Shown here in pieces: positions 2,568-45,087 of a stretch of 62,259 bases of DNA. The stretch is from a virus. The position numbers were made by a program, and so were the translations under genes. The notes under the pieces are model-generated. The model was not told the DNA's origin. It made no database searches and was given only the letters and a program-made list of their open reading frames with translations. The stretch covers positions 1 to 62,259 of the IMG/VR virus record IMGVR_UViG_3300037193_002008; one strand, given 5' to 3'. Each line of letters starts with the position of its first letter. Position 1 is the first letter of the stretch.

Positions 2568-2574
2568 GCCCCAA

Positions 2575-2717: not shown

Positions 2718-2805
2718 TCGGACCGATCACCGACTACACAGCCCCAATCCAAGCCCGCTCTTGCCCCAACCCCCGTCAACGCAGAACACCCGGAAGGACC
2801 CCGAC

Positions 2806-4914: not shown

Positions 4915-5337
4915 ATGACCGACCCGACCACCCAGCGCACCGAAACCCTCGACGCCCTCCGCGACCACCCCGAGCGGATCCGCACCGTCGCACAGTTCCT
5001 GTTCGACGGCGGCGACGAGAACCTGCCCTTCGTCCGCACCACCGTTCACCGGCTCGCTACCGAGGAACCTGCCGACCTGCCGACGTGGGACGACCTGTCC
5101 GACCTCGACAAGGGCGCAGCCCTGCTCCACCTGCACAAGCGGGAATGGGAAGGCGGCGACTACGCCGAGGAGCACTACCCGGCCTCATTCTTCGACCACC
5201 CGGCCCTGACCGCCATGTGGCCGAGGGAGGCGTCCCGGTTCGCCGCCGAACTGGATGAGGACACCGAGGCGCTGTCGCCTGAGGAGCACAAGCGGCTGTA
5301 CGACCTTGCCCTTGCTGCCGAACGCGCCAACCGCTGA
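4915..5337 (+). CDS. Hypothetical protein
   Basis: 140 aa, acidic and helical, without Cys clusters or membrane segments. The ATG at 4915 has a gaaggag site 8 bp upstream, part of the repeated start module of this operon. Function not recognised. Confidence 0.7.
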   Translation: MTDPTTQRTETLDALRDHPERIRTVAQFLFDGGDENLPFVRTTVHRLATEEPADLPTWDDLSDLDKGAALLHLHKREWEGGDYAEEHYPASFFDHPALTAMWPREASRFAAELDEDTEALSPEEHKRLYDLALAAERANR

Positions 5338-5367
5338 GTCCACCTACACCTGAAGGAGATCCGAGTC

Positions 5368-5634
5368 ATGCCCACGTACACGTTCCAGGAGATCCGCCGC
5401 ACCAAGACCGTCCGGTTCAAGTGCGCCTGCGGCAAACGCTTCCAGCGCAAGGTCGCCGAAACGCAGACGATCAACCCGTTCAACCGCAACGCCGACGGCA
5501 CCCAGAAGACCTACCCCGAGATCTGGATCTCGCTCGGCGTGAAGCTGCAGGACCGGATGCCGCGGTCGGAATGCCCCGGCTGCGACCAGCAGGCTGCGGT
5601 GGTCAGTTCCCTCATCGAGGGCTACGGCGGCTGA
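5368..5634 (+). CDS. Small zinc-ribbon-like protein
   Basis: 88 aa. A CAC pair near residues 19-21 and a CPGC pair near residues 70-73 form a likely two-knuckle zinc ribbon around a 50-residue middle segment. A strong GAAGGAG site precedes the ATG. One of many tiny Cys-rich proteins in this phage; role unknown. Confidence 0.7.
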   Translation: MPTYTFQEIRRTKTVRFKCACGKRFQRKVAETQTINPFNRNADGTQKTYPEIWISLGVKLQDRMPRSECPGCDQQAAVVSSLIEGYGG

Positions 5635-5787
5635 CTACCGCGCCACCGCGCAGCTCCTTCGAAGCCCAAAGCCCGGACCACCCGACCACCGCAACCCCAC
5701 CCGACACGCCAGCCACACAGACAGGCCGGCTGACCCAAGCCGCTCTGGCCCCGTCCACCGATCGCAGCAACCCCCGAAGGAGACCCC

Positions 5788-5994
5788 GTGAAGCCCACGT
5801 TCCGCCCCGGTGACCGCATCATCTACGCCACCACCGGCCGTCCCATCGAGATGTCGACGTTCGGCGACTGGGTGAACGTCTGCCCCGTCGACGAAGTCGC
5901 CATGGACCACCTCGCAGACGACGGGTCCGTGCGCTGCCCCGTCTGCCAGATGTGGGCGGCCGACCTGCCGGTCGGGGCGCCCGATGTCCACTGA
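5788..5994 (+). CDS. Small hypothetical protein with a CPVC knuckle
   Basis: 68 aa, starting at GTG after GAAGGAG. It opens with an SH3-like stretch (FRPGDRIIYATTGRP) and ends with a CPVCQMW motif. The 150 bp before it (5635-5787) are C-rich and show no gene. Confidence 0.65.
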   Translation: MKPTFRPGDRIIYATTGRPIEMSTFGDWVNVCPVDEVAMDHLADDGSVRCPVCQMWAADLPVGAPDVH

Positions 5995-6021
5995 CGTCTC
6001 CACCGACCAGAAAGGCTGCAC

Positions 6022-6420
6022 GTGCTCGTCAATCTGACCCCACACCCGATCCGCATCTACCCGCCCGACGCCCCCGACCGGCTCGACCCCGACGAATGGG
6101 TGCCCACCATCGAACTCCCGGTCGCCGACCAACCGCCCGCACGCATCGGTGAACAGACGCTTGGTACCGCGTCCTACATCGGCGCCATCCCCATCGAGTA
6201 CGTCGAGTACGCCTCACATGGCGGCACCGTCCACCCAATCCCACCCGTTCAGCGAGACGACCGCGGCGAACCGGCCGCGTTCTACGTCGTCAGCCTTGTC
6301 GTCGGCCTCGTGCTCACCTACAGCGGACACAACCGGCCTGACCTACTCGTGCCGTACCGGGAGGTGCGCAACCTCGCCGGGACCGTCATCGGCTGCCGCC
6401 AACTCGCCCGACCCGTCTGA
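6022..6420 (+). CDS. Hypothetical protein with LTPHPIRIY N-terminus
   Basis: 132 aa, GTG start. The opening LVNLTPHPIRIY and the central VVSLVVGLVLTY look like strands of a beta-rich fold; I have the impression of a recurring conserved hypothetical in phages and actinomycetes but no function. The hydrophobic middle (about residues 87-98) is short for a membrane segment. Confidence 0.7.
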   Translation: MLVNLTPHPIRIYPPDAPDRLDPDEWVPTIELPVADQPPARIGEQTLGTASYIGAIPIEYVEYASHGGTVHPIPPVQRDDRGEPAAFYVVSLVVGLVLTYSGHNRPDLLVPYREVRNLAGTVIGCRQLARPV

Positions 6421-6448
6421 CCCCCGCCTGCCACCCCAAGGAGAAGAG

Positions 6449-6700
6449 ATGACCAACAGCCACGCCGTGACCCACGACAGCTGCGACTACGCCTACAAGC
6501 AGGTGAAGTGCGACCGCTGCGGCCGCGAGTACACGTCCACACCCTCGGACGACTTCTACTGCGCGGCCGAGGGTGACCACTGCTGCGAGCGGTGCCTGAC
6601 CACCAACGGGCACCCGGCCGATTTCGATCTGGCGTCATTGTTGTCCCAGTGGTCGGACGCGAGCAGGCGGAAGGACGGCCTGGGGTGGCGGCGCGCGTGA
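6449..6700 (+). CDS. Small zinc-finger-like protein
   Basis: 83 aa. CDRCGREY near residues 20-27 and CCERC near residues 49-53 give two CxxC knuckles. The ATG at 6449 follows AAGGAGAAG. Its stop overlaps the next GTG, so the two are probably translationally coupled. Confidence 0.7.
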   Translation: MTNSHAVTHDSCDYAYKQVKCDRCGREYTSTPSDDFYCAAEGDHCCERCLTTNGHPADFDLASLLSQWSDASRRKDGLGWRRA

Positions 6701-6879
6701 GCACCGCCACCGATCATCCGTACACCGACCAGGGCGACGGCCGCACCGAATGCCAGACCTGCGGTAAATGGGTGTGGCCCGTCACCCACTCGTGCAAACG
6801 CGTGCCCGTCACCGAGGCGGCACTTGCACGACACCTTGACCGTGCCCAATCAGCCACGAACCCGCAGGAGACCCGATGA
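6697..6879 (+). CDS. Small CxxC protein
   Basis: 60 aa, GTG start in a GTGA overlap with the previous gene. CQTCGKW near residue 19 and a following THSC form a likely Cys/His metal site. The next gene overlaps its stop by ATGA. Confidence 0.65.
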   Translation: MSTATDHPYTDQGDGRTECQTCGKWVWPVTHSCKRVPVTEAALARHLDRAQSATNPQETR

Positions 6880-7539: not shown

Positions 7540-8070
7540 ATGACCACCGCCAGCCCACCCCAGCCCGACTATTCGAGGCCGTTCATCCCCCTCGACGTCG
7601 ACGAACACACCCTGGCCGTCGAGCGGCACGGCGTCACCCACTACCGGTTCATCTGCACCTGCGCGTTCGCATCCGCATGGTGGCAGGTCCGGCACTACCC
7701 GAACGTGGACACGAACCGGCCACGCAACGGCTGCCCCTGCGACCCGACGGTGCGCGCCCTGACCACGTTGCAGTTCGCCTCCGGTGGCCTGTTCGACGCG
7801 ACACCGGTTGACTACCTGATCCACCTGGTCACCGCCACGAACCGCGGCACGCCCGGCCCGACGCTGTGCGGCATTGACCGGTTCGCGAAGGGCTCCGCCG
7901 GCTGGTCCGTCGGTGGCGGCGTGTCGGGCCCGTCGATAGTGCTGAAGCCGTGCGAAGGCTGTGCGGATGTGGCCTGGACCGAGTTCTCGGGTCTGCCTGT
8001 CGCCGGTTCGGTCGGCGGGCGGCAGATGGCCGACCACCTTGGCGTAGAGCACTGCAACTTCCCCTGGTGA
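7540..8070 (+). CDS. Hypothetical protein with Cys pairs
   Basis: 176 aa. CTCAFASAWW near residue 40, CPCD near residue 66 and CEGCADV near residue 145 suggest one or two metal sites. GAAGGAG lies ahead of the ATG. The segment VTATNRGTPGPTLCGIDRF resembles small actinophage proteins with a conserved LCG(I)DR element. No function assigned. Confidence 0.7.
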   Translation: MTTASPPQPDYSRPFIPLDVDEHTLAVERHGVTHYRFICTCAFASAWWQVRHYPNVDTNRPRNGCPCDPTVRALTTLQFASGGLFDATPVDYLIHLVTATNRGTPGPTLCGIDRFAKGSAGWSVGGGVSGPSIVLKPCEGCADVAWTEFSGLPVAGSVGGRQMADHLGVEHCNFPW

Positions 8071-8093
8071 CCAGGGTGCGAACAGGAGTCGAC

Positions 8094-8396
8094 ATGACCG
8101 ACCAGCCCGCCTTCACCGTCTCGGTTTCGAGCGCTTTCGCCGACGCCGCGAAAGTAGCGGCAGATGTTGCCGGCCGCGTGAACCAGCCCACCATCACCAA
8201 CGCCGCCGTCGACGCCTACCAGCGTGCCTGGGCGACCACGCCGTTCGACCCCAGCGACGCCCTCAACAACGTCCGCGCCGGTCTGGCCGCCGCCTACGAG
8301 TTCCTCCCGATCCGTGGCTGCAACGGCTACGACGGCTGCACCTGCTACCAGAAGGGTGTGCGGGACGGCCTCGAAGCCGCCGGCACCACCTGCTGA
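8094..8396 (+). CDS. Hypothetical protein
   Basis: 100 aa. The N-terminal 65 residues look helical (SAFADAAKVAADVAG, ALNNVRAGLAAAYEF) and a short Cys tail (GCNGYDGCTCYQ) follows. An AACAGGAG site precedes the ATG. Not recognised. Confidence 0.65.
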   Translation: MTDQPAFTVSVSSAFADAAKVAADVAGRVNQPTITNAAVDAYQRAWATTPFDPSDALNNVRAGLAAAYEFLPIRGCNGYDGCTCYQKGVRDGLEAAGTTC

Positions 8397-8427
8397 CCCC
8401 CGCCACCAATCGACCGAAGGAGACCCG

Positions 8428-8973
8428 ATGAGGAAGATCCCAACCCTGTTCCGCCGCGACCCGAACGACATGAGCCGCGTTCTGCCCGAAGTGCACCCGG
8501 ACTGTCAGTGGGTGCTCGACGGCGAGGGCGTGGCTACGTGGAAGTACGACGGCACCTGCGTCCTGTTCGACGGTGAACGCTGGTGGGCCCGCCGCGAGGT
8601 GAAGCCCGGCAAGACCGCCCCGCCGGACTTCGAGCCGGTCCAGACCGACGACGTGACCGGCAAGACGATGGGTTGGGAGCCGATCGAGCAGTCAGCCTTC
8701 GCGAAGTACCACGCCGAAGCGGTCGCGCAGCACGTCACCGTCGGCGACTGGGAGCCCGGCACGTACGAACTGGTCGGCCCGAAGGTCAACGGCAACCCGG
8801 AGATGTGCCAGCAGCACGAACTGTGGGCGCATGCCGCCGCTGACCAGGTCGATGCCCCACGCGACTTCGAAGGGCTGGCGAGGTTTCTCGCCGATTTCGC
8901 GGGCGAGGGTCTGGTTTGGCATCACCCGGATGGTCGGATGGCGAAGCTCAAGCGGAAGGACTTTCCACGATGA
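8428..8973 (+). CDS. RNA ligase-like nucleotidyltransferase (DUF5565 type)
   Basis: 181 aa. Covalent nucleotidyltransferase motifs appear in order: motif I KYDGT (Lys39 would carry AMP), a motif III-like YELVGPKVNGN near residues 113-123, motif IV-like EGLVW near residue 164 and motif V-like MAKLK near the C-terminus. There is no separate C-terminal domain, as in compact phage RNA ligases. It would join RNA ends using ATP, for example repairing cleaved tRNAs. It ends in an ATGA overlap with the HEPN gene, which suggests the two act together. The start follows GAAGGAG. Confidence 0.75.
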   Translation: MRKIPTLFRRDPNDMSRVLPEVHPDCQWVLDGEGVATWKYDGTCVLFDGERWWARREVKPGKTAPPDFEPVQTDDVTGKTMGWEPIEQSAFAKYHAEAVAQHVTVGDWEPGTYELVGPKVNGNPEMCQQHELWAHAAADQVDAPRDFEGLARFLADFAGEGLVWHHPDGRMAKLKRKDFPR

Positions 8974-24011: not shown

Positions 24012-24333
24012 ACGGACACGCAACGGACACGGACGGCCCCGAACCGGGCCGGTTGGCCCCGGATGACCCCGGAGGGGTGCGGACCGGCTGACCTGCGAAT
24101 ATCGGACCCGATCGAACCGTTCCGGATGATGCCGGAGGTGTGCTACCGCACTTGAAAACCGGTAGAGCGAGAGATCGTTCTCGTGGGTTCGAATCCCACA
24201 CCCTCCGCTTCACCAGCATCAACGCCCCGGACGGCGGAAAGCCGAAGGGATCTCCGGGCCGGTTCGGACACAGAACGGACACGCTCGGTCAGCTCGCCGT
24301 CCCGGACGTGTCGCCGGACACCCCGTCGGACAC
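24012..24333. other. attP: tRNA-Ser(UGA) 3' half with arm-type repeats
   Basis: From 24151 to 24208 the sequence reads as the 3' part of a tRNA-Ser gene: anticodon loop CTTGAAA (anticodon TGA), a long variable arm, the T arm GGGTTCGAATCCC and acceptor CCCTCCG. The 5' half lacks a D arm, so it is not a working tRNA gene but an attachment core that rebuilds the host gene on integration. CGGACAC repeats flank it: 24013, 24024 on the left; 24265, 24276, 24315 and 24327 on the right. The pairs are 11-12 bp apart, as for arm sites bound by an integrase. Otherwise 23872-24288 holds no credible gene. Confidence 0.75.
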
Positions 24334-25713
24334 AGGTCCAGCTGGCCGTCGCCGGTGCCGCTCCGCCAGCAGGGATACGACCGTCTCCGACGCCTTGTCG
24401 AGGATCGGCTTGCGCACGTGCTGATACCGGTCCCGCGTGAACCCGGTCTTCGAGTGACCCATCCGCTCCGACACGATCTTGATGTCGATGCCGGCTTCCA
24501 GGCCGAGCGTCGCTGCCGTGTGCCGGCCGTCGTGGAACCGGATCGGCGGCAAGCCGGCGGCTGCGACGGCGGTCCGCCAACGACGGGACACCAGGTCCGG
24601 CGGCCACGGCTCACCTGTCGGCCGGCAGAAGATCAGGTCGTTGTCGGTCCACGCCTCGCCCATGGCAAGGCGCATCTCCGCCTGCTTCACCCGATGACGC
24701 AGGTACATGTCCCGGGTGGCGCCGTCGAGGTGCACCGTCCGCTCTCCGGCCTTCGTCTTCGGCGTCGACTCGGTGATCCGGCCCGAGATCGACAGGATCG
24801 TCTTCTTGAGGGTCAGGTGGCCGGTGGCCTCATCGAAGCCGGCCCAGCGGGCGCCGACGATTTCGCCGCGGCGTGGGCCGTGGATGACGACGGTCCTGAA
24901 CAACAGGCCCATCTCCCCGTCGTCCTCGATGAAGTCGAGGAACCGGTTGACCTCGGCCGGTCCCCAAACCACCGTCTCGGCGGGGTCCTCCGGCGGCAGT
25001 TCGATGTGTTGGGCGGGGTTGACGTTGATCCGGCGGGCCTTGATCGCCCCATTGAGGGCGTTGCGGAGGGTGGCGACAACCCGGTGCAGGGTGGCGTTAC
25101 TGATCACCTGCACTCGGCGGCGGATGTCGCCCTCGCAGTTCGGGTGGCGCCCTTCGGCGCGAGCTTCGGCGATCTCAGCGTTCCATTCTCCAATCCGGTC
25201 GACCATCTCGTCGATGTGTTCGGCGCGGAGCCGGTCGAGGGGGACCTGGCCGAGCATCGGATTCAGGTAGATCCGGATGTGGGTGGCGTACGTCTCGGCG
25301 GTCGACTCCCGGAGTTTCCGCTTCCCGGCGAGCCACTGATCCAGCCATGAGCCGACGGTGATGGAGGAGGACAGGTCGCCGCGGAGGCCGAGCTTGCGAC
25401 GGACCTCGTCGACCGGGGGGAGAGGCGCGCCTCGGCGTAGTCCGAAGAGGAGGTCTCCGATGCGGTTGATGTCGTGTCGTTCGCCGCAGGCGAGGGCGAC
25501 GAGGTTGCGAACGAGGCGGCCGTGTTCTTCGGCGTCGGCTCGTCGGGCGAAGCCGCCGCGGCGGTAGGAGCGGCGACCGGTGCTGGAGTCGAGCCTGTCC
25601 CGATACTCCCAGTCGCCATGCTTCGATCCGGTTAGTTGCGGGCAGGCCGATCCGTACTCTCTTCCCGTTTGTGGGTTTTTGCAGTGGCATCGGCGTTTGA
25701 TGCTGCCTGGCAC
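24289..25713 (-). CDS. int: Tyrosine-type site-specific integrase
   Basis: 474 aa. An N-terminal region with a Cys cluster (CHCKNPQTGREYGSAC) is followed by a SAM-like core-binding domain near residues 118-225 and a C-terminal catalytic domain. Active-site residues are visible: Arg in HGPRRGE near 281, Lys near 320 (TPKTKAGER), His and Arg in FHDGRH near 394-397, His in MGHS near 420, and the Tyr nucleophile in RDRY at 430. It would recombine attP with the host tRNA-Ser(UGA) attB. The gene ends within about 80 bp of the attP core, the usual arrangement. The long basic N-terminus fits arm binding. Confidence 0.9.
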   Translation of the reverse strand: MPGSIKRRCHCKNPQTGREYGSACPQLTGSKHGDWEYRDRLDSSTGRRSYRRGGFARRADAEEHGRLVRNLVALACGERHDINRIGDLLFGLRRGAPLPPVDEVRRKLGLRGDLSSSITVGSWLDQWLAGKRKLRESTAETYATHIRIYLNPMLGQVPLDRLRAEHIDEMVDRIGEWNAEIAEARAEGRHPNCEGDIRRRVQVISNATLHRVVATLRNALNGAIKARRINVNPAQHIELPPEDPAETVVWGPAEVNRFLDFIEDDGEMGLLFRTVVIHGPRRGEIVGARWAGFDEATGHLTLKKTILSISGRITESTPKTKAGERTVHLDGATRDMYLRHRVKQAEMRLAMGEAWTDNDLIFCRPTGEPWPPDLVSRRWRTAVAAAGLPPIRFHDGRHTAATLGLEAGIDIKIVSERMGHSKTGFTRDRYQHVRKPILDKASETVVSLLAERHRRRPAGPVSDGVSGDTSGTAS

Positions 25714-26733: not shown

Positions 26734-27132
26734 TTAGGCGGAACGCCTACGCCGCATGAGTTTTCGCTCGGGTTCCATCACCTGGTCGACGATGAGCCGC
26801 AACCGCTGCCGCCGTTCCTCCCCAAGGGGGGAGTTCTGGTCGAGCATGCGGTCGAGCTCTGCGGCGAGCGGATCTGTCTCCTTGACGGGCACCGCAACGG
26901 TGGCAGCGTCGGTGGGTGCGCCGTAGCCGGCGAGGCTGAGTAGTTGGCTGTAGTCGATGCGCAGGGCCGGGGCGACGAGCCGGAGCTTGTCCGGAGTCGG
27001 GCGGCTCTCGTTGCGGATCCACCGGCTGAGGGTTGCGGCGTCGATTCCGCTGCGTCGTGCGAGTTCGGGTCTTTCGATGGGTGGACTCTGCGAGCGCATG
27101 TAGTCAGCGAGCCAGTCGCCGAAGGGTCTCAT
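26734..27132 (-). CDS. Xre-family repressor
   Basis: 132 aa. An N-terminal Xre helix-turn-helix (PPIERPELARRSGIDAATLSRWIRNES) is followed by TPDKLRLVAPALRIDYSQLLSLAGYG, a classic phage/actinobacterial repressor start, then a linker and a helical acidic C-terminus probably for dimerisation. A gggagg site precedes the ATG at 27132. It faces palindromes at 27153 and 27332 and is the best candidate for the immunity repressor. Its stop region carries a small hairpin (TAGGCG/CGCCTA at 26735-26749). Confidence 0.75.
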   Translation of the reverse strand: MRPFGDWLADYMRSQSPPIERPELARRSGIDAATLSRWIRNESRPTPDKLRLVAPALRIDYSQLLSLAGYGAPTDAATVAVPVKETDPLAAELDRMLDQNSPLGEERRQRLRLIVDQVMEPERKLMRRRRSA

Positions 27133-27366: not shown

Positions 27367-27651
27367 ATGAGTGCACGGCACGGACGCATGACCGATCGGA
27401 AGACCTACCGAGGCCGACGCGTCCTCGTCGTCGACTCGGCGCGGTTCACCGCCGAGATGGCGCGCCATAACGCCACCACCGACGCCGAGATCGCCCGGCT
27501 CCTCGAAACAGAGCGGACGACGATCACCCGCATCCGCGAGGGTGAAACGTTGCCCTCCAACACCTTCTTTGCCGCCTGCTCCGACGCCGGCGTCGACTTC
27601 CTGTCGTTCCTCAACGTCGAACGCCGCAACACTGTCGACCGGGCGGCATGA
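27367..27651 (+). CDS. HTH protein, divergent from the repressor
   Basis: 94 aa. The middle is an Xre-type helix-turn-helix (TDAEIARLLETERTTITRIREGETLPS, NTFFAACSDAGVDFLSF). Its promoter overlaps the operator palindrome, so it is likely a Cro-like or early regulator. Leaderless start at 27367; an in-frame ATG later would shorten it by 7 residues. Confidence 0.65.
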   Translation: MSARHGRMTDRKTYRGRRVLVVDSARFTAEMARHNATTDAEIARLLETERTTITRIREGETLPSNTFFAACSDAGVDFLSFLNVERRNTVDRAA

Positions 27652-27652
27652 G

Positions 27653-28423
27653 ATGCCCGCGACACGCACGCCGATCGAGAAGCTACCCAGAAACGCTTCG
27701 GCGTGGACCGAAGCGCCCGAAGCCTGGGTCGCGGATCTCTCCGGCCCCGGCAAGATGCTCCACCGGACGACCGTGGTTGCAGCGCCACACGGCGGAATCA
27801 CAACCCACGCCCAGACAGTGTGCGGCGGCTACCTGACCCGCGCCAACCTCTACTTCGACCCGCCCGCCGACCTCGACGAGTGCGACGCCTGCCTGATGGA
27901 CAACACCGTCTACCACGTCGCCTACATGTACCGCGACACCGACGGCAGATACCTCTACGCCGGCTACAGCTCAGGCCTCGTCGAGCGGATCGGGAAGCAC
28001 CGCCGGGAATCCCCCTGGTGGCGCCCGGATCTGGTCCTCACCTACGAGGTCTTCGACAGTGAAGTCGAAGCGCGGGCCGCTGAGACCGCAGCGATTCGGA
28101 AGTACTGGCCGCGTTACAACCTCGCCGCCAAGGGCGGCGGGCCGCGCGAGAACGCACCCAAGGCCACCCTCCACGTCCACTACGACGTGCTTGTCCGCCT
28201 AGTCGCTGAGCGGCTCGAAGTGCCCGCCGACTCCGTCGGAACTGGGCTCTGCGCGGATTTCCTGGGCGTCAACCGGTCGACCTGCTACCGGATAAGCGTC
28301 GACCGCGAGTACGTCGTCAGCAGCAGCCTAGTCGCGCAGGTCATGACCATCTTCGGCGGAATTCCTGAAGGCGTTTTCGAAGCCCGCCTGCCAACGGCGC
28401 GACACCTGTCCGTCGTCGCCTGA
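27653..28423 (+). CDS. GIY-YIG nuclease-like protein with HTH-like tail
   Basis: 256 aa. After an N-terminal segment with CGG and CDACL elements, a GIY-YIG domain runs from about residue 87 (VAYMYRD, YLYAGYSS, RIGKHRRE with the catalytic Arg, AAETAAIRKYWPRYN with the Glu). The C-terminal part (LVRLVAERLEVPADS, LVAQVMTIFGGIPEG) resembles a helix-turn-helix used for site recognition. Its start almost abuts the previous stop. It could be a homing endonuclease or a regulator turned nuclease. Confidence 0.7.
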   Translation: MPATRTPIEKLPRNASAWTEAPEAWVADLSGPGKMLHRTTVVAAPHGGITTHAQTVCGGYLTRANLYFDPPADLDECDACLMDNTVYHVAYMYRDTDGRYLYAGYSSGLVERIGKHRRESPWWRPDLVLTYEVFDSEVEARAAETAAIRKYWPRYNLAAKGGGPRENAPKATLHVHYDVLVRLVAERLEVPADSVGTGLCADFLGVNRSTCYRISVDREYVVSSSLVAQVMTIFGGIPEGVFEARLPTARHLSVVA

Positions 28424-29721: not shown

Positions 29722-29854
29722 CCGCCCGCGTCTCGTCGCCGTCGACGACCTTCGCATCGCCGTGAACATTGCTGCTTTTCTTGCCCGTTTCGGCAGCCCG
29801 CTCGCCAAACAGGTTCTTGCCGACACCAACCCGAGCCGCCCGAGGAGGGCTTGA
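29711..29854 (+). CDS. Tiny hypothetical protein
   Basis: 47 aa, overlapping the previous gene by 11 bp; helical with a hydrophobic centre (VNIAAFLARFG). Coupled to the next gene. Confidence 0.5.
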   Translation: MTSSRPRLVAVDDLRIAVNIAAFLARFGSPLAKQVLADTNPSRPRRA

Positions 29855-30108
29855 TGTTTTCCAACCTTCACGAGGCGCGGGCTGAGGCCCTGTTCGCCTC
29901 CACGCTGCAGCGGTCACAGCACCCCACCAACGTTGAGGTTCGAGCCACGGTGAAGGCCACGATCCGCCAGTTCGGGGTGCGTGGCTGTGCCGGTGCTGTC
30001 GCCGCCGAGTACGCCCGCCACCCGGATACGGCGGTGGCGCGGATGGCGTGGTGCAACACTGCCGTCGACGAGGCGTGGCCGGCGCGGACCCTTGCGGGTG
30101 TCCGGTGA
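29854..30108 (+). CDS. Small helical hypothetical protein
   Basis: 84 aa from the ATG at 29854 in a TGATG overlap, preceded by GAGGAGG. Helical, Ala-rich; conserved-looking FGVRGCAGAVAAEYARHP. Unrecognised. Confidence 0.6.
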   Translation: MFSNLHEARAEALFASTLQRSQHPTNVEVRATVKATIRQFGVRGCAGAVAAEYARHPDTAVARMAWCNTAVDEAWPARTLAGVR

Positions 30109-30521
30109 CCGCCGCGACCCGTCGGCAGTGGACGTATTCCGCCGGGACGGTCGCCTACCGGCGGAGTGTCCGCCACACACTGCTCCTCGGCTGGGATGTG
30201 GCGACCCCGACGGTGGTGACCCTGCTCCTCGGTACCCCGCAGGGTGCCGCGATCGGTGGCGGCCACTGGGATGTCGACCGGCGGATGCTGTCGGGCGGGC
30301 TGACTGTCGATGTGGCTTCGGCCGACGGCGTGGAGGTTCGCCCGTTCCGTGGCGCCGACCCGGGCCTGACACTGATCCGTCCGGCGGCCGGGGTGGTGCC
30401 GTTTGTGGTGCCGGAAGGTGCGCTGGACCGGTTTCTGGCCCGGACAGCGTATTGGGTGCCGTTCGGCACGGAGGTGTCGTTCGAGTCGGCGGTCGACGAA
30501 CTTTTGAGGCGTGCGGCATGA
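30105..30521 (+). CDS. SsgA-family protein
   Basis: 138 aa, GTG start in a GTGA overlap. It matches the SsgA/SsgB family (Pfam-type 'SsgA') in order: a beta-rich start, WDVDRRMLSGGL near residues 55-66 (family pattern W.fARDLL..G), a VDV step near 68, and FLARTAYWVPFGTE near 110-123 (family pattern FL.RT...VP.G.E). SsgA-like proteins control septum placement and FtsZ recruitment in sporulating actinomycetes. A phage copy could alter host division or interfere with sporulation. The assignment rests on these spaced motifs; overall identity is low. Confidence 0.7.
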   Translation: MTAATRRQWTYSAGTVAYRRSVRHTLLLGWDVATPTVVTLLLGTPQGAAIGGGHWDVDRRMLSGGLTVDVASADGVEVRPFRGADPGLTLIRPAAGVVPFVVPEGALDRFLARTAYWVPFGTEVSFESAVDELLRRAA

Positions 30522-30796
30522 GCGCCCGCCCCGTGGTGTCGTCGGTGGCGTTCGTGTTCGCGTTTGTCGGCTGGCTGGTCCGGTCGTGGCCGACGTTCAC
30601 CGAGTCGTTTGCCGGTCAGGCGCATGTGTTGATCTCGTGTGCGGCGATCGGTGGGGTCGGTGCGTGGCTGGCCGGGCTTGTTGTGGGGGTGGCCGAGTCG
30701 AAGGTTGCCGCGGCGAAGGCGGTGGTTGACGCCGACCGGGAGTTGACGACGATCGCCGACGTTATCGGCGTGATGCGGCCGGGGGCGAAGCCGTGA
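30518..30796 (+). CDS. Small membrane protein
   Basis: 92 aa. Hydrophobic segments at about residues 6-22 and 38-58 with a charged helical tail. ATGA overlap with the SsgA-like gene. Function unknown; together they may act at the membrane. Confidence 0.6.
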   Translation: MSARPVVSSVAFVFAFVGWLVRSWPTFTESFAGQAHVLISCAAIGGVGAWLAGLVVGVAESKVAAAKAVVDADRELTTIADVIGVMRPGAKP

Positions 30797-30993
30797 CCCG
30801 CCTTGTCGTCATCCAGCCATACCGGCTGCCGAACCAGTCGACGACCGGACTGCGGGTCGTGGACAAGGTCGGCGATGTGGTCGACAAGATTGTGGCCGTC
30901 GACTACCAGACCCCAGATCTGCGGGCCGCTGCCGAGACGTATTCGGCCATCTATGGGGTTCCGTGGGTGTGCACGGTGGAGGTCAACGCGTGA
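30793..30993 (+). CDS. Small hypothetical protein
   Basis: 66 aa, GTG start in a GTGA overlap. Beta-alpha-beta pattern. Immediately precedes the recombination genes, with GTGA coupling. Confidence 0.6.
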   Translation: MTRLVVIQPYRLPNQSTTGLRVVDKVGDVVDKIVAVDYQTPDLRAAAETYSAIYGVPWVCTVEVNA

Positions 30994-31865
30994 CCGCCGT
31001 CGCCGAGCCCGCAGTGGTGGTGACCGAGCCGGGCATTCACCCGATGACCGCCGAGGCCTACCACGCCGACCCTGTGCCCGAGGGCAGCCTGTCGTCGTCC
31101 GGCGTCAAGAAGCTCCTCCCGCCGTCATGCCCTGCCCTGTTCAAGCACGAACGGGACCACGGGCAGCCACACAAGAAGACGTTCGACTTCGGCCACGCCG
31201 CCCACAAGATGGTCCTCGGTGTCGGGCCCGAGCTCGTGAAGGTCGGCTTCGACAACTGGCGCACGTCGGAAGCCCAGGCGCAGCAGAAGCTGGCCTACGC
31301 CGAGGGAAAAGTGCCGCTGCTCGCCAAGGACTACCAGGTAGTCCTCGACATGGCCGCCGCCCTGCGGGCGCACCCGTTGGCGTCGCGGCTGTTCGGTGCC
31401 GGCACCGGCGAACCTGAGGTGCCGATCTTCTGGTGTGACGCCGAGACCGGGGTGTGGCGTCGGGCGATGTTCGACTGGCTCCGCAACGGCGGCACCGGAC
31501 GACCGATGATCGTCGACTTCAAGGGCCTCGCCAAGGTCGATCTGGCCAGCCTGTCGAAGACGCTCGTCGACTACGGCTACGCCGGCCAGGCGCCCTGGTA
31601 TCTCGACGGAGCGCAGGCTCTCGGCCTCGTCGACGACGACGCGGCCTTTGTGTTCGTGGCACAGATGAAGACCCCGCCGTACCTGATCACGACGTGGCAA
31701 CCGGATGACCGGGCCATCGCATACGGGCGGTCGATCAATCGGCAGGCAATCGAAGTCTTCGCCGCCTGCCAGGAGTCCGGCGAGTGGCCCGACTTCGCCA
31801 ACAACGAAATCCAGGAAATCGCGCTACCCGGCTGGGTTGAGCGCGCCCACGACAACCAGTTCTGA
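30990..31865 (+). CDS. RecE-like exonuclease (PD-(D/E)XK fold)
   Basis: 291 aa, GTG start. Features of the RecE/exonuclease VIII family: HAAHKMVLG near residue 70, FDWLRNGG, then IVDFKGLAKVD (catalytic Asp and Lys), and QAPWYLDGA downstream giving the Q-x-x-x-Y motif. Such enzymes chew 5' ends to expose 3' tails for a RecT partner. The RecT gene follows 28 bp downstream, supporting the pairing. Confidence 0.8.
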   Translation: MTAVAEPAVVVTEPGIHPMTAEAYHADPVPEGSLSSSGVKKLLPPSCPALFKHERDHGQPHKKTFDFGHAAHKMVLGVGPELVKVGFDNWRTSEAQAQQKLAYAEGKVPLLAKDYQVVLDMAAALRAHPLASRLFGAGTGEPEVPIFWCDAETGVWRRAMFDWLRNGGTGRPMIVDFKGLAKVDLASLSKTLVDYGYAGQAPWYLDGAQALGLVDDDAAFVFVAQMKTPPYLITTWQPDDRAIAYGRSINRQAIEVFAACQESGEWPDFANNEIQEIALPGWVERAHDNQF

Positions 31866-31893: not shown

Positions 31894-32781
31894 GTGACTG
31901 TCGCCCTGCGCACCAACAACCACAACGCTGTCACCCTGCCCGACGACTCCGACCACGCCTCCGCCCAACTCATTCAGTGGGCACAGGCCGCTGATGCCGC
32001 GTTCGCATTGGCGAACCGGCTGTGCACCACCCAGTTCGCCCCTGCCGCCTACCGCGGACGGGTAGAAGAGGCCACGGCGGCGATCATCGCCGGGGCCGAG
32101 GTCGGCTTGTCGCCGATGGCCTCGCTGCGAGCCTTCGACGTGATTCAGGGCACGCCCGCCCCGAAGGCGGTGACGTTGCGGGCAATCGTTCAGTCTCGTG
32201 GACACGAGGTCGTAATCAAGGAGTCGAACCCGGACAGGGCCGTTGTGGTTGGCCGCCGCAAGGGCGACGAGGACTGGCAAACGTCGGTGTGGGACGTCGC
32301 CCGCGCCCAGCGGATGGGCCTGACGGAGAAGGCGCAGTGGAAGCAACAGCCCGGCGCGATGCTCGTGGCGCGGGCCACGGCGGAGGTGTGCCGGTGGATC
32401 GCCGCCGACGCCATCATGGGCATGCCGTACACGGCCGAGGAGGTCGGCGACGGTGGCGGCGAGGTCGACGTCCGGCCGGCGCCGCGGCGGGTGTCCGCAC
32501 GGGAGGTCCTCGACGAGCCGCAGCCGGGACCGGTTGAGCCGCCCGCGGCGGACGTCGCCGTCGAGGGCCCGATCATGCCGGACCAGCGGCAGTTGGCCGC
32601 CATGTTCGCCACCCTGAACGAGGCGAACCTGAAGGACAAGGCGGTGCAGCTGGACTTCATCGCCGAGGTCATCGGTCGGCGGATCGAGTCGCGCAAGGAG
32701 CTCACCGCCGACGAGGTCGCGCAGATCCGGTCGGCTGCTCGGGCGCTGGTGCCGCCGCAGGACGGCGTTGAGCAGGCGTGA
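31894..32781 (+). CDS. recT: RecT-family single-strand annealing protein
   Basis: 295 aa, GTG start without an obvious Shine-Dalgarno. The N-terminal two thirds carry the RecT pattern: AAIIAGAEVGLSPMASLRAFDVIQGTPAPKA, then QSRGHEVVIKE and MLVARATAEVCRWIAADAI. The C-terminal part is a proline-rich linker and a helical end. It would anneal complementary strands with the RecE-like nuclease during phage recombination. Confidence 0.85.
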   Translation: MTVALRTNNHNAVTLPDDSDHASAQLIQWAQAADAAFALANRLCTTQFAPAAYRGRVEEATAAIIAGAEVGLSPMASLRAFDVIQGTPAPKAVTLRAIVQSRGHEVVIKESNPDRAVVVGRRKGDEDWQTSVWDVARAQRMGLTEKAQWKQQPGAMLVARATAEVCRWIAADAIMGMPYTAEEVGDGGGEVDVRPAPRRVSAREVLDEPQPGPVEPPAADVAVEGPIMPDQRQLAAMFATLNEANLKDKAVQLDFIAEVIGRRIESRKELTADEVAQIRSAARALVPPQDGVEQA

Positions 32782-32978
32782 TGCGGGTCGAGATGACCGA
32801 ATGGTTCAAGCTTCGGTTCGGGCTGGTGGTGTTCGACTTCGACGCCTCGCGCCGTGACCGGCCGAGGGTGGAGGTCTACCAGCCGAACACTGACGGCGCC
32901 GTTCTCGACCCGCGTGACGCCGAGCAGCTCGGCACCGCGCTGCTCGCGTGGGCGCAGCGGTACGGCGGTGGATCATGA
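32781..32978 (+). CDS. Small hypothetical protein
   Basis: 65 aa from the ATG at 32781 in a TGATG overlap; a GTG at 32778 is an alternative. Beta-rich start. Coupled to the exonuclease gene. Unrecognised. Confidence 0.55.
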   Translation: MRVEMTEWFKLRFGLVVFDFDASRRDRPRVEVYQPNTDGAVLDPRDAEQLGTALLAWAQRYGGGS

Positions 32979-33847
32979 CGTGGTTCGACCCCGCCCAACG
33001 CTGGCTGTGCTGGGACCTAGAGACCACCGCCCCCGATCCAGCCGAGGCGCGTCTGGTCACTGCCTGCGTCGCGTTTGTCGGAGGTGGTAAGCCGACCGAG
33101 GTCATGTCATGGGTTGTCGACGCTGGTGTCGACGTACCTGCCGAGGCGGCCGAGGTGCACGGCTACACCACCGAGCGGGTGCGGGCCGAAGGTAAGCCGA
33201 TCGCGGACGTCCTGCCGGAAATCGTCGGCTACCTGGCCGGCGCGGTCGCGGCGGGCGTCCCGCTGGTGGCGTTCAACGCCTGCTACGACAACACGGTCCT
33301 GGCGTGCGAGACGGTCCGGCTTGGGCTGGACCCGTTCGGTGATGTTCTTGCGGATGCGGTAGTGCTAGATCCGTTCGTGATCGACAAGCGCATTGACCGC
33401 TACCGTCCGGGCAAGCGGACGCTGGAGACCGCGTGTCAGGTCTACCGCGTGAAACTTGACGGAGCCCACGACTCGGAATTCGACGCCCTCGCCGCCGGCC
33501 GTGTCCTGTACCGCATCGGGCAGCGCTGCCAGATGACCCCGGGCCAGATCCGCGCCGAGTATGCCGAGCGGCGGTACCCGAACAACTTCGTGAAGGCGTT
33601 CGCCGAGCTCGGGGCGATGTCGCTGCGGGAGCTCCACGACGCGCAACGTGAGTGGTACCAAGAGCAGTCGGAAGGCCTGGCCGCCCACTGGCGCAAGGTG
33701 GTCATGGAGAAGCGCCACGAGGCCGACGGTGCCGCCGATCGTGACGAGTTCGACCTGGCTACGACGCTGCGCGCCGAAGCCGATGAGCTCCTCGAACGGG
33801 CGGACGGCGTGAACACGTCGTGGCCGCTGCAGGTGGTGTCGCCGTGA
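32975..33847 (+). CDS. DnaQ-like 3'-5' exonuclease
   Basis: 290 aa. DEDDh exonuclease motifs in order: WDLETTAP (Asp14, Glu16), NACYDNTVL (Asp105) and AHDSEFDA (His165, Asp170). The rest of the C-terminus is helical and unique. It degrades DNA 3' ends and could proofread or process recombination intermediates. ATGA coupling to the previous gene. Confidence 0.85.
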   Translation: MTWFDPAQRWLCWDLETTAPDPAEARLVTACVAFVGGGKPTEVMSWVVDAGVDVPAEAAEVHGYTTERVRAEGKPIADVLPEIVGYLAGAVAAGVPLVAFNACYDNTVLACETVRLGLDPFGDVLADAVVLDPFVIDKRIDRYRPGKRTLETACQVYRVKLDGAHDSEFDALAAGRVLYRIGQRCQMTPGQIRAEYAERRYPNNFVKAFAELGAMSLRELHDAQREWYQEQSEGLAAHWRKVVMEKRHEADGAADRDEFDLATTLRAEADELLERADGVNTSWPLQVVSP

Positions 33848-34876: not shown

Positions 34877-35157
34877 TCAAAGCCAAGCCTGCCCCTGCCC
34901 CGTGTGAGTGTGGCGGCACGTGCCGTACCTGCACCGATCCGCTGCTTCTGGAGTGGAAGAACGACGCCCAAGCCCACCACGCGGCGTGGCGGACCGCCGA
35001 CCTCGGCAAGAACACCGAGCGGGTGACGGTGCCGGTGGGGTCGCTGGCGAACACGCAGCTGGTGGTGAACCTGCCGCGGCGGCTGGCGAACCCCAGCATC
35101 GCCGAGTTCGAAGCCGGAATGTCGGCGTTGTATGAGCGGTTGCGGGGCCATGTCTGA
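34873..35157 (+). CDS. Hypothetical protein with Cys-rich start
   Basis: 94 aa, GTG start. CECGGTCRTC near residue 9 is likely a zinc knuckle; the rest is helical and charged. Overlaps the next gene by 8 bp. Unrecognised. Confidence 0.55.
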   Translation: MIKAKPAPAPCECGGTCRTCTDPLLLEWKNDAQAHHAAWRTADLGKNTERVTVPVGSLANTQLVVNLPRRLANPSIAEFEAGMSALYERLRGHV

Positions 35158-35698
35158 CGTCTGGCCCGCCGTCATGGTGACCGGCCACCGTGAGCTCGCC
35201 GCCGAGGAGGCGGACTGGGTGCGGGGCCGGCTGGCCGACTGTGTGGCGTGGCTACGCGACGTGCACGACACGACCGTTGCGATCTCCGGCATGGCGCTGG
35301 GTGTCGACACCACGTGGGCCCAGGTCGCCCTCGACGCCGGGCTGGCGCTGCACGCCTACGTGCCGTTCCCGCAGCAGCCCGACCGGTGGCCCGAACCGGA
35401 CCGGGAGGAATGGTCGAAGCTGTTGGCCCGCGCCACGGAGGCCCACACCGTCGGCGACCTCAACAACGTCGACCCTGGGCGCCGCAGATTCGAGGTGATC
35501 CGGCTCCTCCACGCCCGCAACGACGCCATGCTGCGGGCCACGTCCGGGGTGGCCGTGGCCGCTCTGCGGGCGTCAGCCACGACTGGCGGTACGTACTCGT
35601 GCGTCGAGAAGGCCCGACGGCGGGGCTTGACCGTGGTCCACATCGAACCGGAGTCGCGGACGACGCGGCTCTTGCGACCTGAGGCGGCGTCGTTGTGA
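35150..35698 (+). CDS. SLOG-superfamily protein (DprA/YpsA-like)
   Basis: 182 aa. The start VMVTGHREL followed by ISGMALGVDTTWAQVAL has the SLOG nucleotide-binding pattern (TG.R, G...G.D). The later ATTGGTYSCVEKARRRG fits its second loop. Members bind NAD-like or nucleotide ligands; in phages their role is unknown. It closes the rightward operon. Confidence 0.65.
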   Translation: MSDVWPAVMVTGHRELAAEEADWVRGRLADCVAWLRDVHDTTVAISGMALGVDTTWAQVALDAGLALHAYVPFPQQPDRWPEPDREEWSKLLARATEAHTVGDLNNVDPGRRRFEVIRLLHARNDAMLRATSGVAVAALRASATTGGTYSCVEKARRRGLTVVHIEPESRTTRLLRPEAASL

Positions 35699-36161: not shown

Positions 36162-36839
36162 ATGCCACGCACATACGAGCCACCGGCAGGCAAAACCGTC
36201 GGCGCCTGCCGGGTCTGCGGCAACATCCGCACCCTCAAGAAGGACGGCACCCTGCGCGTCCACGGCGCCGCCGGGCAGAAGTACACGAACTGTCGCGGAT
36301 CCGGCCAGCAGCCCAAAGGCGCCGGCGACCAGCGGCCAGTGTGGCTCCTTGACGTCGACGGCGTCATCAACGCCAACCGACCCGGCTGGGGTGCCGCGCC
36401 CACCCAGCGGCAGGTCTGGTCCAACCACATCGGCCGCGAGTTCCGGGTGCGGTTCGCCCCCGAGTTGATCCGCCGCATCCGCAACATCCACCGCGCGGGA
36501 CAGGTCGAGATCCGCTGGTGCACCACATGGTGTGGCGACACAGCCGTCCTGGAGCAGGCGTTCACCCTGCCCGAACTCGGCACATCGTGGACTGACTACT
36601 GCAACGGCTACGTCGCGAAGGAAGCGAAGCTGGCCGCCGCCGAAGACGTCCTCGCCGAGGGCCGAAAGCTCATCTGGACCGACGACACCGAGGCCCCCGA
36701 CGAGTCGTCGGATCTGCACCGCGCGCTGACCGCCGACGGTCAGGCGCTGTTGATCCGGCCCGACGAGCGGACCGGCCTCCAGCCCGAGCACCTCGACACT
36801 ATCGAAGCCTTCATCAACGGAAACAAGGAGAACCAGTGA
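36162..36839 (+). CDS. HAD-like protein with N-terminal Cys motif
   Basis: 225 aa. The N-terminus has a CRVCGNI knuckle; then WLLDVDGVIN near residue 66 is the first HAD motif, RWCTTWCGDT near 115 the threonine/serine motif region and IWTDD near 170 the last acidic motif. HAD proteins are often phosphatases; substrate unknown. Its start follows GGAGC upstream. Coupled to the lipoprotein gene by GTGA. Confidence 0.7.
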   Translation: MPRTYEPPAGKTVGACRVCGNIRTLKKDGTLRVHGAAGQKYTNCRGSGQQPKGAGDQRPVWLLDVDGVINANRPGWGAAPTQRQVWSNHIGREFRVRFAPELIRRIRNIHRAGQVEIRWCTTWCGDTAVLEQAFTLPELGTSWTDYCNGYVAKEAKLAAAEDVLAEGRKLIWTDDTEAPDESSDLHRALTADGQALLIRPDERTGLQPEHLDTIEAFINGNKENQ

Positions 36840-40969: not shown

Positions 40970-41265
40970 ACACGAAGCCGCTGCTGCGCACAGTCGGCCA
41001 GCGAGTCCGGGAACTACGACGGGCGCAAGGCCTCAACCGGCAACAGGTCGCCGACCTTGCCGGGGTTCACATGACAACGGTGCGGTCGCTGGAAAGGCAG
41101 CAGCCTGCCGGGACGAGCCTGCACACGCTGGCTGGCCTGTCACGGGCGTTGGGGGTGCCGATCGGTGTCCTCGTCGGGGAACAGCCGATGCCTTCGGGTG
41201 GCGTACCGCCGATCGAATGGCGCCGGGTCCGGGCTGAGGTCGACTCGTTGCGGGAGGCGGCGTGA
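40966..41265 (+). CDS. Xre-family HTH protein
   Basis: 99 aa. VGQRVRELRRAQGLNRQQVADLAGVHMTTVRSLERQQPAG is an Xre helix-turn-helix; LAGLSRALGVPIGVLVGE follows. The C-terminus is a short helix. Overlaps the WhiB gene. Regulator of unknown targets. Confidence 0.75.
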   Translation: MNTKPLLRTVGQRVRELRRAQGLNRQQVADLAGVHMTTVRSLERQQPAGTSLHTLAGLSRALGVPIGVLVGEQPMPSGGVPPIEWRRVRAEVDSLREAA

Positions 41266-41873
41266 TGACCATCCCCGCCCGCGTGTCTTTCGCCAATGAC
41301 CGGTCGGTGCCGTGCCGGCGACCGGCGAACAACCCGGACTGGTGGGGTGCCGACAAGGAAGAGGGCGGCTCCCACTACACCGACGCTGTGGCCGCCGCGA
41401 AACTCGCCTGCCTGCAATGCCGGCGTCGGGTGGACTGCCTGATCGCCGCAGCTGACACCGACGACGAGCACGGAATCCGCGGGGGCCTCACCCCGACCGA
41501 GCGGGCCGCGTGGACGGTCGACGACGGGGACCCGTTCGACCTGCGGGACTTCCCCGAGGCGCCGCAGTGGTACGCGAAGCCGTTCAGCTGGCAGGGTTCG
41601 GGCCGGCGCTACAACCTGCGGGATCTGTTCGCCGCTGTCGACGCGGTCAGAGGAGGTGTCGGGCACCGCGATGCCGCCGAAGAGTTCGGGGCGAGTTTGA
41701 CGAACCTGCAGCAGGCGGTCCTGATCCGGCGGTGGGCACCTGATCTGGTCGACGACGTGTGCGACGGGCATGTGCCGATCGGTGCGGCGGAACGGTATGC
41801 CCGCGCGGTGCGGGACTTTTTCACGCCGGGGCGTCCGGCGACAGCGGCGGTTTCTATCAAGGAGGCGGCGTGA
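41262..41873 (+). CDS. WhiB-family iron-sulfur regulator
   Basis: 203 aa. Four Cys in WhiB spacing: C18 (SVPCRRP), C50, C53 (CLQC) and C59, followed by GIRGGLTPTERAAW, the phage/WhiB turn equivalent to G(V/I)WGG. They would hold a [4Fe-4S] cluster. WhiB proteins control differentiation and division in actinomycetes, and phage copies can dominate host ones. A C-terminal extension of about 110 residues contains an HTH-like segment (HRDAAEEFGASLTNLQQAVLIRRW). Start ATG at 41265 or GTG at 41262. Confidence 0.85.
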   Translation: MMTIPARVSFANDRSVPCRRPANNPDWWGADKEEGGSHYTDAVAAAKLACLQCRRRVDCLIAAADTDDEHGIRGGLTPTERAAWTVDDGDPFDLRDFPEAPQWYAKPFSWQGSGRRYNLRDLFAAVDAVRGGVGHRDAAEEFGASLTNLQQAVLIRRWAPDLVDDVCDGHVPIGAAERYARAVRDFFTPGRPATAAVSIKEAA

Positions 41874-43051: not shown

Positions 43052-43258
43052 ATGCACACGATACAGGCCACCGCCGAGAAAATCGATCTCGATCACTCAC
43101 GCGATTCGCGAACGGGTTCACGACAGCCGATTTGGACATCGCGCTGCGCGTGCTCCCACCTTGCCGTCCATCACGGACCCGCCGACGGCTGGAACCTCCG
43201 TGGCGCCTGCCTCAATGCCAGGTGCGGATGCGCTGCATTCCAGGCGGTGCCAGCATGA
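43052..43258 (+). CDS. Small CxC zinc-domain protein
   Basis: 68 aa from an ATG at 43052. RCACSHLAVHH and GACLNARCGCAAF give a C-x-C...H...C-x5-C-x-C pattern typical of small actinobacterial phage domains. ATGA overlap with the methyltransferase gene. Role unknown. Confidence 0.6.
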   Translation: MHTIQATAEKIDLDHSRDSRTGSRQPIWTSRCACSHLAVHHGPADGWNLRGACLNARCGCAAFQAVPA

Positions 43259-45087
43259 CCTACACCATCGGCTCGTTCTGCACCGGCTACGGCGGCGCCG
43301 ACCTCGCCGTCGAAGCAGTCCTCGGGCCCGCCGAGCACCTGTGGCACACCGAATTCAACGACGACAAGGTGAAGATCCTCGCCGCCCACTGGCCCACAGT
43401 GCCCAACCTCGGCGACATCACCAAGGTCGACTGGTCGCAGGTAGCCCGCCCAGACGTCGTTACCGCAGGTTTTCCATGCACCGATATTTCTTCAGCTGGC
43501 CGTCAGGCGGGCATGGCCAGCGGCCGTCTGTTGGCCGCTGGCCAGATGGAGTGCGGCTGCCGATGGGCAGACCACCAAGCAGAGACGTGCCGCGACTCGA
43601 CCGCCCCGACGACCAGGGGCGCGTCGGTCTGCGCGTTCGACCCCTGGGAAACCTTGAACGACGGGGACTTCGACGAAGCCGTCAAGGACGCGATCGCGTG
43701 GCTGAACGCCCGCGACCTAGCCAGCCCCGACGGACCGCCACCGAAACGCACCGTCGGCGGCACCCGCTCCGGCGTCTGGTCGAACATCGCCGCCGCCATA
43801 GCCATTCTCCGACCCCGCCTCGTCCTCATCGAAAACGTCCGGGCACTCCTGTCTACGAAAGCGAACCGAGATGCAGCCGACAGCCACGTGGAACCCGGAC
43901 CGGCAGATGTGGGAAACGGACCAGCTGGACCTGTTCTCCGCGCAATCGGAGCCGTACTCGGAGACCTTTCCGACCTCGGGTTCGATGCGGAATGGTGCAC
44001 TGTGGCCGCGTCCGACGTCGGCGCCTGCCACCGCCGCGAACGGGTCTTCGTACTCGCCTGGCCCCGCGACGCTGCCGACACCGAAAGCGTCCGATACTGG
44101 CACGAGCGGGCGCAGGGCGTCGCCGGGGTGGCGACCACCGCTGTCGGAGGTCGTGCTGGCGCAGACGGGCTGAACCTGCTGCCGACCCCGACGAGTTCGG
44201 ACACAACCGGGGCAGGCCACTCCGGGCGCAAGGGCGGGCACAACCTGCGGACCGAGGTGTCGCTGCTACCCACCCCGACCGCCACGTCATACGGCAGCAA
44301 CCAGTCCGCCTCGGCGGGTGCCGCAGTGCGGCCGTCGCTGGACAGCCTCGCCAGCTCCGGGGCGCTGCTGCCCACGCCCGCCCCACGGCTCGGCGACGAA
44401 CGGGGTTCCCCGTCTGCACGACTCGCCGGCGACCGGATGCCATCCGGTCGCCGCAACCTCGACGACGCTGTGGCCCTGCTGCCCACGCCGACAGCGCGGG
44501 ACGGTGACGGCCGAGGCGAAGGCTCCCCCGGCTATTGGGCGAGGCGCGGTGACGAACGGGCCAACGGGCTGCCGCTCGGCGCCGTCGTCAACCTCCTGCC
44601 AACCCCGCGAGCCACCGACGGCACGAAAGGTGGCCCGAACCAGCGCGGCTCGTCCGGCGACCTCATGCTGCCATCGGCGGTGATGGAGCTCCTTCCGACA
44701 CCGGTCACCACTGACGCCAACGGTGCCCGCAACGCCACCGCAGTCCGCCACCGCGTCAGCCCGACAGCACAGACGAACGGCTGGGCCCTCTCGGACGTCG
44801 CCCACGCCGACCGGTGGGGCCGCTACGGCGACGCCATCCTCCGCTGGGAACAGATCGTCGGACGCCCCGCGCCCGATCCGACCGAACCCGGATCGAAAGG
44901 CCAGCCACGCCTATCGCCCCGCTTCGTCGAGTTCATGATGGGCCTGCCCGACGGCTGGGTCACCGACCACGTCGGCCGCAACGCCGCTCTGCATGCCCTC
45001 GGAGACGGAGTTGTCTGGCAACAGGGTGCGTACGCACTGCGGCGACTTCTTCGGGCCGCGGTTACGCCCGTGGGGGTGGCGTCGTGA
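43255..45087 (+). CDS. DNA cytosine-C5 methyltransferase
   Basis: 610 aa. Motif I GSFCTGYGG (residues 6-14) binds S-adenosylmethionine; motif IV AGFPCTDIS holds the catalytic Cys75; motif VI IENV is near residues 192-195; GACHRRERVFVLAW serves as motif VIII. A roughly 80-residue insert with Cys (MECGCRWADHQAETC) interrupts the loop after motif IV. Residues about 305-480 contain six repeats of the type LLPTP followed by a Thr/Ala and Asp, probably within the target-recognition region. Phages use such enzymes to protect their DNA. A frame upstream is open to 43018, but the ATG at 43255 begins at motif I. Confidence 0.85.
   Translation: MTYTIGSFCTGYGGADLAVEAVLGPAEHLWHTEFNDDKVKILAAHWPTVPNLGDITKVDWSQVARPDVVTAGFPCTDISSAGRQAGMASGRLLAAGQMECGCRWADHQAETCRDSTAPTTRGASVCAFDPWETLNDGDFDEAVKDAIAWLNARDLASPDGPPPKRTVGGTRSGVWSNIAAAIAILRPRLVLIENVRALLSTKANRDAADSHVEPGPADVGNGPAGPVLRAIGAVLGDLSDLGFDAEWCTVAASDVGACHRRERVFVLAWPRDAADTESVRYWHERAQGVAGVATTAVGGRAGADGLNLLPTPTSSDTTGAGHSGRKGGHNLRTEVSLLPTPTATSYGSNQSASAGAAVRPSLDSLASSGALLPTPAPRLGDERGSPSARLAGDRMPSGRRNLDDAVALLPTPTARDGDGRGEGSPGYWARRGDERANGLPLGAVVNLLPTPRATDGTKGGPNQRGSSGDLMLPSAVMELLPTPVTTDANGARNATAVRHRVSPTAQTNGWALSDVAHADRWGRYGDAILRWEQIVGRPAPDPTEPGSKGQPRLSPRFVEFMMGLPDGWVTDHVGRNAALHALGDGVVWQQGAYALRRLLRAAVTPVGVAS

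Follow-up and report, generated by a model that had tools for sequence, protein, structure and literature searches.

What is a relative of the septum-placing SsgA proteins doing in a virus, and is the relationship real? We examined this question for a gene of a 62,259-base IMG/VR virus record (68% GC), which was analyzed over its full length and is called the window here. The feature under study is:

30105-30521, + strand, SsgA-like protein (SALP) gene, 138 aa, GTG start, identified by the profile PF04686, Foldseek matches to SsgB structures and shuffle controls

The gene ends with a TGA stop codon (30519-30521) and overlaps both neighbors by 4 nt, the upstream gene (29854-30108) through GTGA and the downstream gene (30518-30796) through ATGA. 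Given these overlaps, the SALP gene and its two neighbors are likely translationally coupled. Its codon-position GC contents (0.73/0.57/0.81) were in line with those of the remaining genes of the virus, and the gene was also picked by a codon-usage gene caller made for this record.

A divergent member of the SsgA-like family

The sequence-only reading had assigned the product to the SsgA family on the basis of two spaced motifs of SsgA and SsgB. Both were present exactly, WxxxRxxLxxG as W-DVD-R-RM-L-SG-G and FLxRTxxxVPxGxE as FLARTAYWVPFGTE. The assignment was borne out by profile search: the protein cleared the cut-off of 25 of the Pfam SsgA model PF04686 with 35.4 bits (E 1.1e-8), and residues 28-123 aligned with positions 5-98 of the 98 in the profile. 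When 396 Actinomycetota genomes were searched with this model, only 14 yielded a match above the cut-off, and 14 control genomes yielded none, indicating that the match is not background. Against a local profile of 26 bacterial SsgA-like proteins and two SsgB proteins, the phage protein scored 24.1 bits, compared with 10.6 for the best of 2000 shuffled sequences, and hhalign with the same profile returned 94.5% (E 7.4e-8), compared with 4.7% for the best of 60 shuffles. In bacteria, the protein directly matched two SALPs (L097 and L098; E 2-4e-4). The gene thus almost certainly encodes a SALP.

An unrelated beta-rich phage protein that resembles the family motifs by chance would be the trivial explanation, and the pairwise match between this protein and the SALP of a syntenic contig (L007, see below) was indeed not significant. 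However, the curated cut-off of PF04686 was exceeded, the shuffle controls of both profile and hhalign searches separated the protein from chance, and the direct bacterial matches and the SALP in L007 itself point the same way; a false match is therefore extremely improbable and already largely refuted. When phages, viral contigs and GTDB genome contigs were searched pairwise with the protein, no relative came up, and no close copy was found in bacterial genomes and other viruses; SALP relatives were instead reached via the family model, RecT and SsgB. Separately, a sub-threshold SsgA match of 24.1 bits (L116, 180-674) was seen in a 2.4 Mb Actinomycetota genome (G056), outside the large genomes that held most other SsgA matches, and is possibly a distant SALP.

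The predicted structure agreed with this assignment. AlphaFold2, supplied with an alignment of the SALP of this virus with phage and SsgB sequences, gave a model of moderate confidence (pLDDT 67, pTM 0.61). When this model was compared with the PDB by Foldseek, all eight matches at E <= 1e-3 were SsgB chains (6SUJ, 6SLC and 3CM1), with probability 1.00 and TM scores of 0.59-0.71 for a model derived from the SsgB-containing alignment, and the top matches in a viral structure library were SsgA-like proteins of Streptomyces phages. Structure prediction thus brought up SsgB and no different fold, as the sequence-only reading would have it, but because SsgB was inside the alignment and single-sequence AlphaFold failed (pLDDT 34, no usable model), the fold match is supportive rather than independent. 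For Mycobacterium phage Dylan, a possible fold of the SsgA type (Foldseek E 3.6e-3) lacked HMM support and is not claimed; judging by its length, the protein behind this weak match to the SsgA-like model is probably Dylan gp101 (L145, 22316-22720).

The gene had also been described as a phage copy of an SsgA-family gene. It does not closely resemble either SsgA or SsgB, however: identities were about 20-28%, and about 26-28% to SsgB of S. coelicolor. In SsgB numbering, the protein retained the alpha2-alpha3 hinge (V115, P116, G118, T119 and E120) with its partner R55, as well as the FLxRT stretch. In SsgB, this hinge determines how the last helix is angled, E120 and V115 contact R55, and the substitutions V115G, G118V and E120G tilt or rotate the division plane (PMC8061694). 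Among the residues invariant in bacterial SALPs, P34, V37, W51, R55, G61, V71, P75, G118 and E120 were kept, as was D70, depending on the alignment, whereas Y29, D33, F41, F53, L57, G67 and G69, invariant in all 26 bacterial SALPs, were altered, so that several of the invariant residues of the N-terminal half are gone. The hydrophobic patch of SsgB (Y35, V37, L57 and L97) was not intact either, with Y35 replaced by T, L57 by M and L97 by F. With just 26-28% identity and an altered patch, the protein does not look like an orthologue of SsgB, the FtsZ recruiter.

The two directly matched bacterial SALPs, L097 and L098, are SsgD by the equivalog cut-off of NCBIfam NF052496, and in the tree the phage SALP stood beside them, on a very long branch that makes this placement unsafe. 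NF052496 picks up SALPs in general, and with 23.7 bits the phage protein stayed far below its cut-off of 185; this score and the long branch led us to reject an SsgD (spore wall SALP) identity. The protein was also apart from the remaining phage SALPs, and since long branches meet there, the tree does not distinguish one capture of SALPs by phages from several. By these sequence comparisons, the phage protein is a strongly divergent new member of the SsgA-like family.

Early-operon setting and SALPs of other phages

The genes around the SALP gene that bear on its role are as follows:

24289-25713, - strand, tyrosine integrase (phrog_1, E 5.4e-62)
26734-27132, - strand, candidate CI-type repressor, HTH_3 (PF01381, E 2.7e-7; phrog_3949, E 3.5e-11)
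27388-27651, + strand, candidate Cro-like protein, divergent from the repressor (by position; weak HTH_31 match, E 0.009, below cut-off)
27653-28423, + strand, GIY-YIG endonuclease, opening the early operon (PF01541, E 8.9e-6; syntenic in L007)
29854-30108, + strand, 84-aa protein with no family match, GTGA-coupled upstream of the SALP gene
30518-30796, + strand, predicted membrane protein of 92 aa (hydropathy), ATGA-coupled to the SALP gene
30793-30993, + strand, 66-aa protein with no family match
30990-31865, + strand, RecE-like (exonuclease VIII) nuclease (phrog_412, E 1.6e-85)
31894-32781, + strand, RecT-like annealing protein (phrog_4171, E 3.7e-48; about 55% identity to the L007 protein)
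32975-33847, + strand, DnaQ-like exonuclease (phrog_192, E 1.3e-28; syntenic in L007)
41265-41873, + strand, WhiB-like regulator (PF02467, E 1.7e-7; four-cysteine pattern)

An integrase, a divergent pair of repressor and Cro-like genes, and recombination genes downstream form the early-operon layout of a temperate actinophage, and the presence of a tyrosine integrase points to a temperate phage. The GIY-YIG gene, small genes, the SALP gene, the membrane protein gene, recE, recT and dnaQ form a run of mostly overlapping + strand genes, farther along which are whiB, a large DNA methyltransferase gene and a helicase gene; terminase, portal and head protease genes occupy the right end of the record. 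The RecE-like protein was closest to gp39 of Streptomyces phage OnionKnight (45% identity) and the integrase to that of Streptomyces phage TurkishDelight (33%), although integrase matches spread across most Actinomycetota sampled. Together with the WhiB-like protein (cysteines C17, C49, C52 and C58), these relationships suggest that the host is likely an actinomycete.

In the lambdoid layout, the region downstream of Cro that holds the recombination genes is normally repressed in the lysogen. Since the SALP gene adjoins recombination genes downstream of the immunity region, the SALP would, by analogy with this organization, be made early in lytic infection. A promoter scan, which covered sigma-70-type sites only, found nothing. 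The sequence-only reading had proposed that the gene might keep the phage through sporulation; its position downstream of the Cro-like gene, in an early lytic operon with RecE and RecT, disfavors a role of the prophage kind.

Elsewhere in the window, we observed a phosphoadenosine phosphosulfate reductase-like gene (3320-4132; phrog_424), weak SLOG/DprA-like matches, a nucleotide-binding fold, at 35150-35698, and a DNA methyltransferase of about 610 aa (43255-45087) whose profile matches fall in separated stretches, which suggests a large insertion or a fused domain. The C-terminal stretch of the 8428-8973 product matched RNA ligase 1 (RLIG1, PF17720, E 7.2e-9), and 36162-36839 matched, slightly under cut-off, HAD_SAK_2, the 'Swiss Army Knife RNA repair' kind of HAD domain; the two may hint at RNA repair. 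The SALP and WhiB-like genes place two homologues of host developmental regulators in one phage.

A second SALP was found in the same place in another virus. The best RecT relative in IMG/VR (about 55% identity) lies on contig 3300044709_000179 (L007), which was thus located without use of the SALP, and its genes are arranged in the same order as in the present virus:

833-1141, L007, GIY-YIG
2570-3007, L007, SALP
5099-5968, L007, RecE
6001-6813, L007, RecT
7582-8493, L007, DnaQ

The L007 SALP scored 53.2 bits to PF04686. The two phage SALPs were only about 21% identical, the hinge VPxGTE was lost in L007, and more genes separated SALP from RecE there than in the present virus. The other RecT relative, L008, carried no SALP. 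Since L007 too has a SALP gene between its GIY-YIG and RecE genes, the SALP of the present virus is, as judged from gene order, a resident gene of the temperate-actinophage early operon. A captured host gene that drifts without function would explain the extreme divergence of the SALP, but the intact reading frame, the normal codon bias, the tight run of overlapping genes and the keeping of a SALP in that interval of L007 despite such low identity make a mere passenger very unlikely.

The sequence-only reading had noted that the SALP gene is coupled to a membrane protein gene, and the 30518-30796 product is indeed predicted by hydropathy to have two helices, with hydrophobic segments at about residues 3-24 and 36-60 followed by a charged tail. 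Pfam and NCBIfam gave no match to it, PHROG none of significance and tblastn none in phages, leaving it with no detectable relative. A SepG/YlmG-like anchor was not supported, there being no match to YggT (PF02325); SepG has two helices flanking a cytoplasmic center, whereas this product has two close helices and a C-terminal tail. L007 has two small membrane genes before RecE, but several genes separate them from the SALP gene, so the pairing is not conserved, and a partnership between SALP and membrane protein is unsupported.

By tblastn with the SsgB, Comrade and Wakanda proteins, about 30 named Streptomyces phages were seen to encode a SALP, mostly annotated as 'hypothetical protein'; their genomes are nearly all of 121-131 kb. 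All named phages with SALPs infect Streptomyces. The Comrade and Wakanda SALPs were above the PF04686 cut-off, and that of Faust passed the local SALP profile. In three large Streptomyces phages examined, the SALP gene (L003, 3947-4327; L004, 2444-2821; L005, 2462-2848) was a few genes upstream of an Lsr2-like gene. Scans of IMG/VR with SsgB and the Dagobah protein gave no matches. A human fecal 'Bacteriophage sp.' scaffold, MT838510, also encodes a SALP (L006, 4505-4936; 39-45% identical to SsgB); this unverified 5 kb scaffold may be bacterial rather than phage DNA.

Possible role in infected hyphae

That the SALP redirects host division, as the sequence-only reading suggested, is plausible from its sequence and setting. 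Our preferred reading, held tentatively at a probability of roughly 0.45, is that this divergent early-operon resident interferes with host septum placement as a competitor or decoy. The SALP, produced early in lytic infection, would act on the septum-placement machinery of the host (FtsZ, SsgA or SsgB) and most likely block or misplace septa, so that infected hyphae would remain undivided and would not sporulate. Interference rather than activation is suggested by the loss of family-invariant residues while the hinge was kept, by the restriction of phage growth through Streptomyces development, and by a precedent in which a phage homologue of a developmental protein hinders septation. Streptomyces development contributes to keeping phage infection in check, and repression of developmental genes is an early event in infection by phage Alderaan (PMC10117723); the precedent is the WhiB of phage TM4, described as hindering septation in work cited in PMC7650747. 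The residue pattern would fit an altered, interfering SALP better than a working replacement, and it is equally compatible with drift toward another role.

Such a working replacement would imitate SsgA or SsgB, recruiting FtsZ or wall machinery and stimulating cross-walls or fragmentation, with the spread of infected compartments or the carriage of the phage into spores as its purpose. It would accord with the retained hinge and C-terminal motif, and Streptomyces SALPs are positive regulators, with SsgB recruiting FtsZ (PMC8061694). We consider it rather unlikely, because many residues of the N-terminal half that are invariant in 26 bacterial SALPs were lost, no SepG/YggT-like partner was found, and the gene is grouped with recombination genes of the early lytic region rather than with the integrase and repressor, a location ill-suited to lysogeny or spore carriage.

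Drift toward another role would make the protein a SALP descendant whose SsgA fold serves a purpose unrelated to host division, such as control of the neighboring RecE/RecT or of DNA replication, or a complex with the membrane protein whose gene is coupled to its own. The very long branch and the lost invariant residues agree with this, as do the location before RecE/RecT conserved in two phages and the similar position of the Dagobah SALP among DNA-metabolism genes. However, nothing positive points to such a function, and the restriction of named SALP phages to Streptomyces hosts is what a host-directed function predicts; we regard repurposing as a lesser possibility that deserves to be kept in mind.

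Interference with septum placement might also extend beyond this virus. It is conceivable, though we would not expect it on present evidence, that actinophages repeatedly recruited SALPs as early-expressed inhibitors of FtsZ recruitment, directed against host escape into spores. If so, these proteins would parallel the division inhibitors of other phages while drawing on the fold with which the host itself places septa. Sporulation and development have come to be viewed as one way in which Streptomyces contains phages (PMC10117723), and a phage-owned member of the septum-placing family offers a testable handle on phage counter-action at the divisome. Because about 30 sequenced Streptomyces phages carry a SALP gene, the divisome question can be tested with cultured phages, and the SALPs of about 29 large ones, mostly listed as hypothetical proteins, are worth re-annotation. 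We found no experimental study of any phage SALP in the open-licence literature.

Comparison with known SALPs

SsgB of S. coelicolor (6SLC/6SUJ) and T. fusca (3CM1) agrees with the phage SALP in length and, by the SsgB-guided model, in fold, and common to both are the W-R-L-G and FLxRT...VPxGTE motifs and the hinge residues. Unlike SsgB, the present protein is phage-borne and encoded in an early operon, and its residues at Y29, D33, Y35, F41, G67 and G69 are altered; demonstrated FtsZ recruitment also sets SsgB apart. Two SsgD proteins were matched directly and stand beside the phage SALP in the tree, unsafe as that placement is, yet the phage SALP falls far under the SsgD equivalog cut-off.

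Phage homologues of SsgA are not new. The SALPs of large Streptomyces phages in the Stanwilliamsviridae (Comrade gp209, Faust gp210, Wakanda gp230 and others) are phage-borne, as here, but they have 125-128 aa and occur in phages of 121-131 kb, unlike the present virus. The earliest published case that we found is the ssgA of Streptomyces phage Dagobah, reported by Hardy et al. in 2020 (PMC7650747) and brought up again in 2023 as a gene that might serve to manipulate development (PMC10117723). The Dagobah gene, HUN42_00031, encodes a phage-borne SALP among DNA-metabolism genes, as in the present virus, whereas its score to PF04686 is 75 bits, compared with 35 for the SALP described here, and its genome type and neighboring genes differ.
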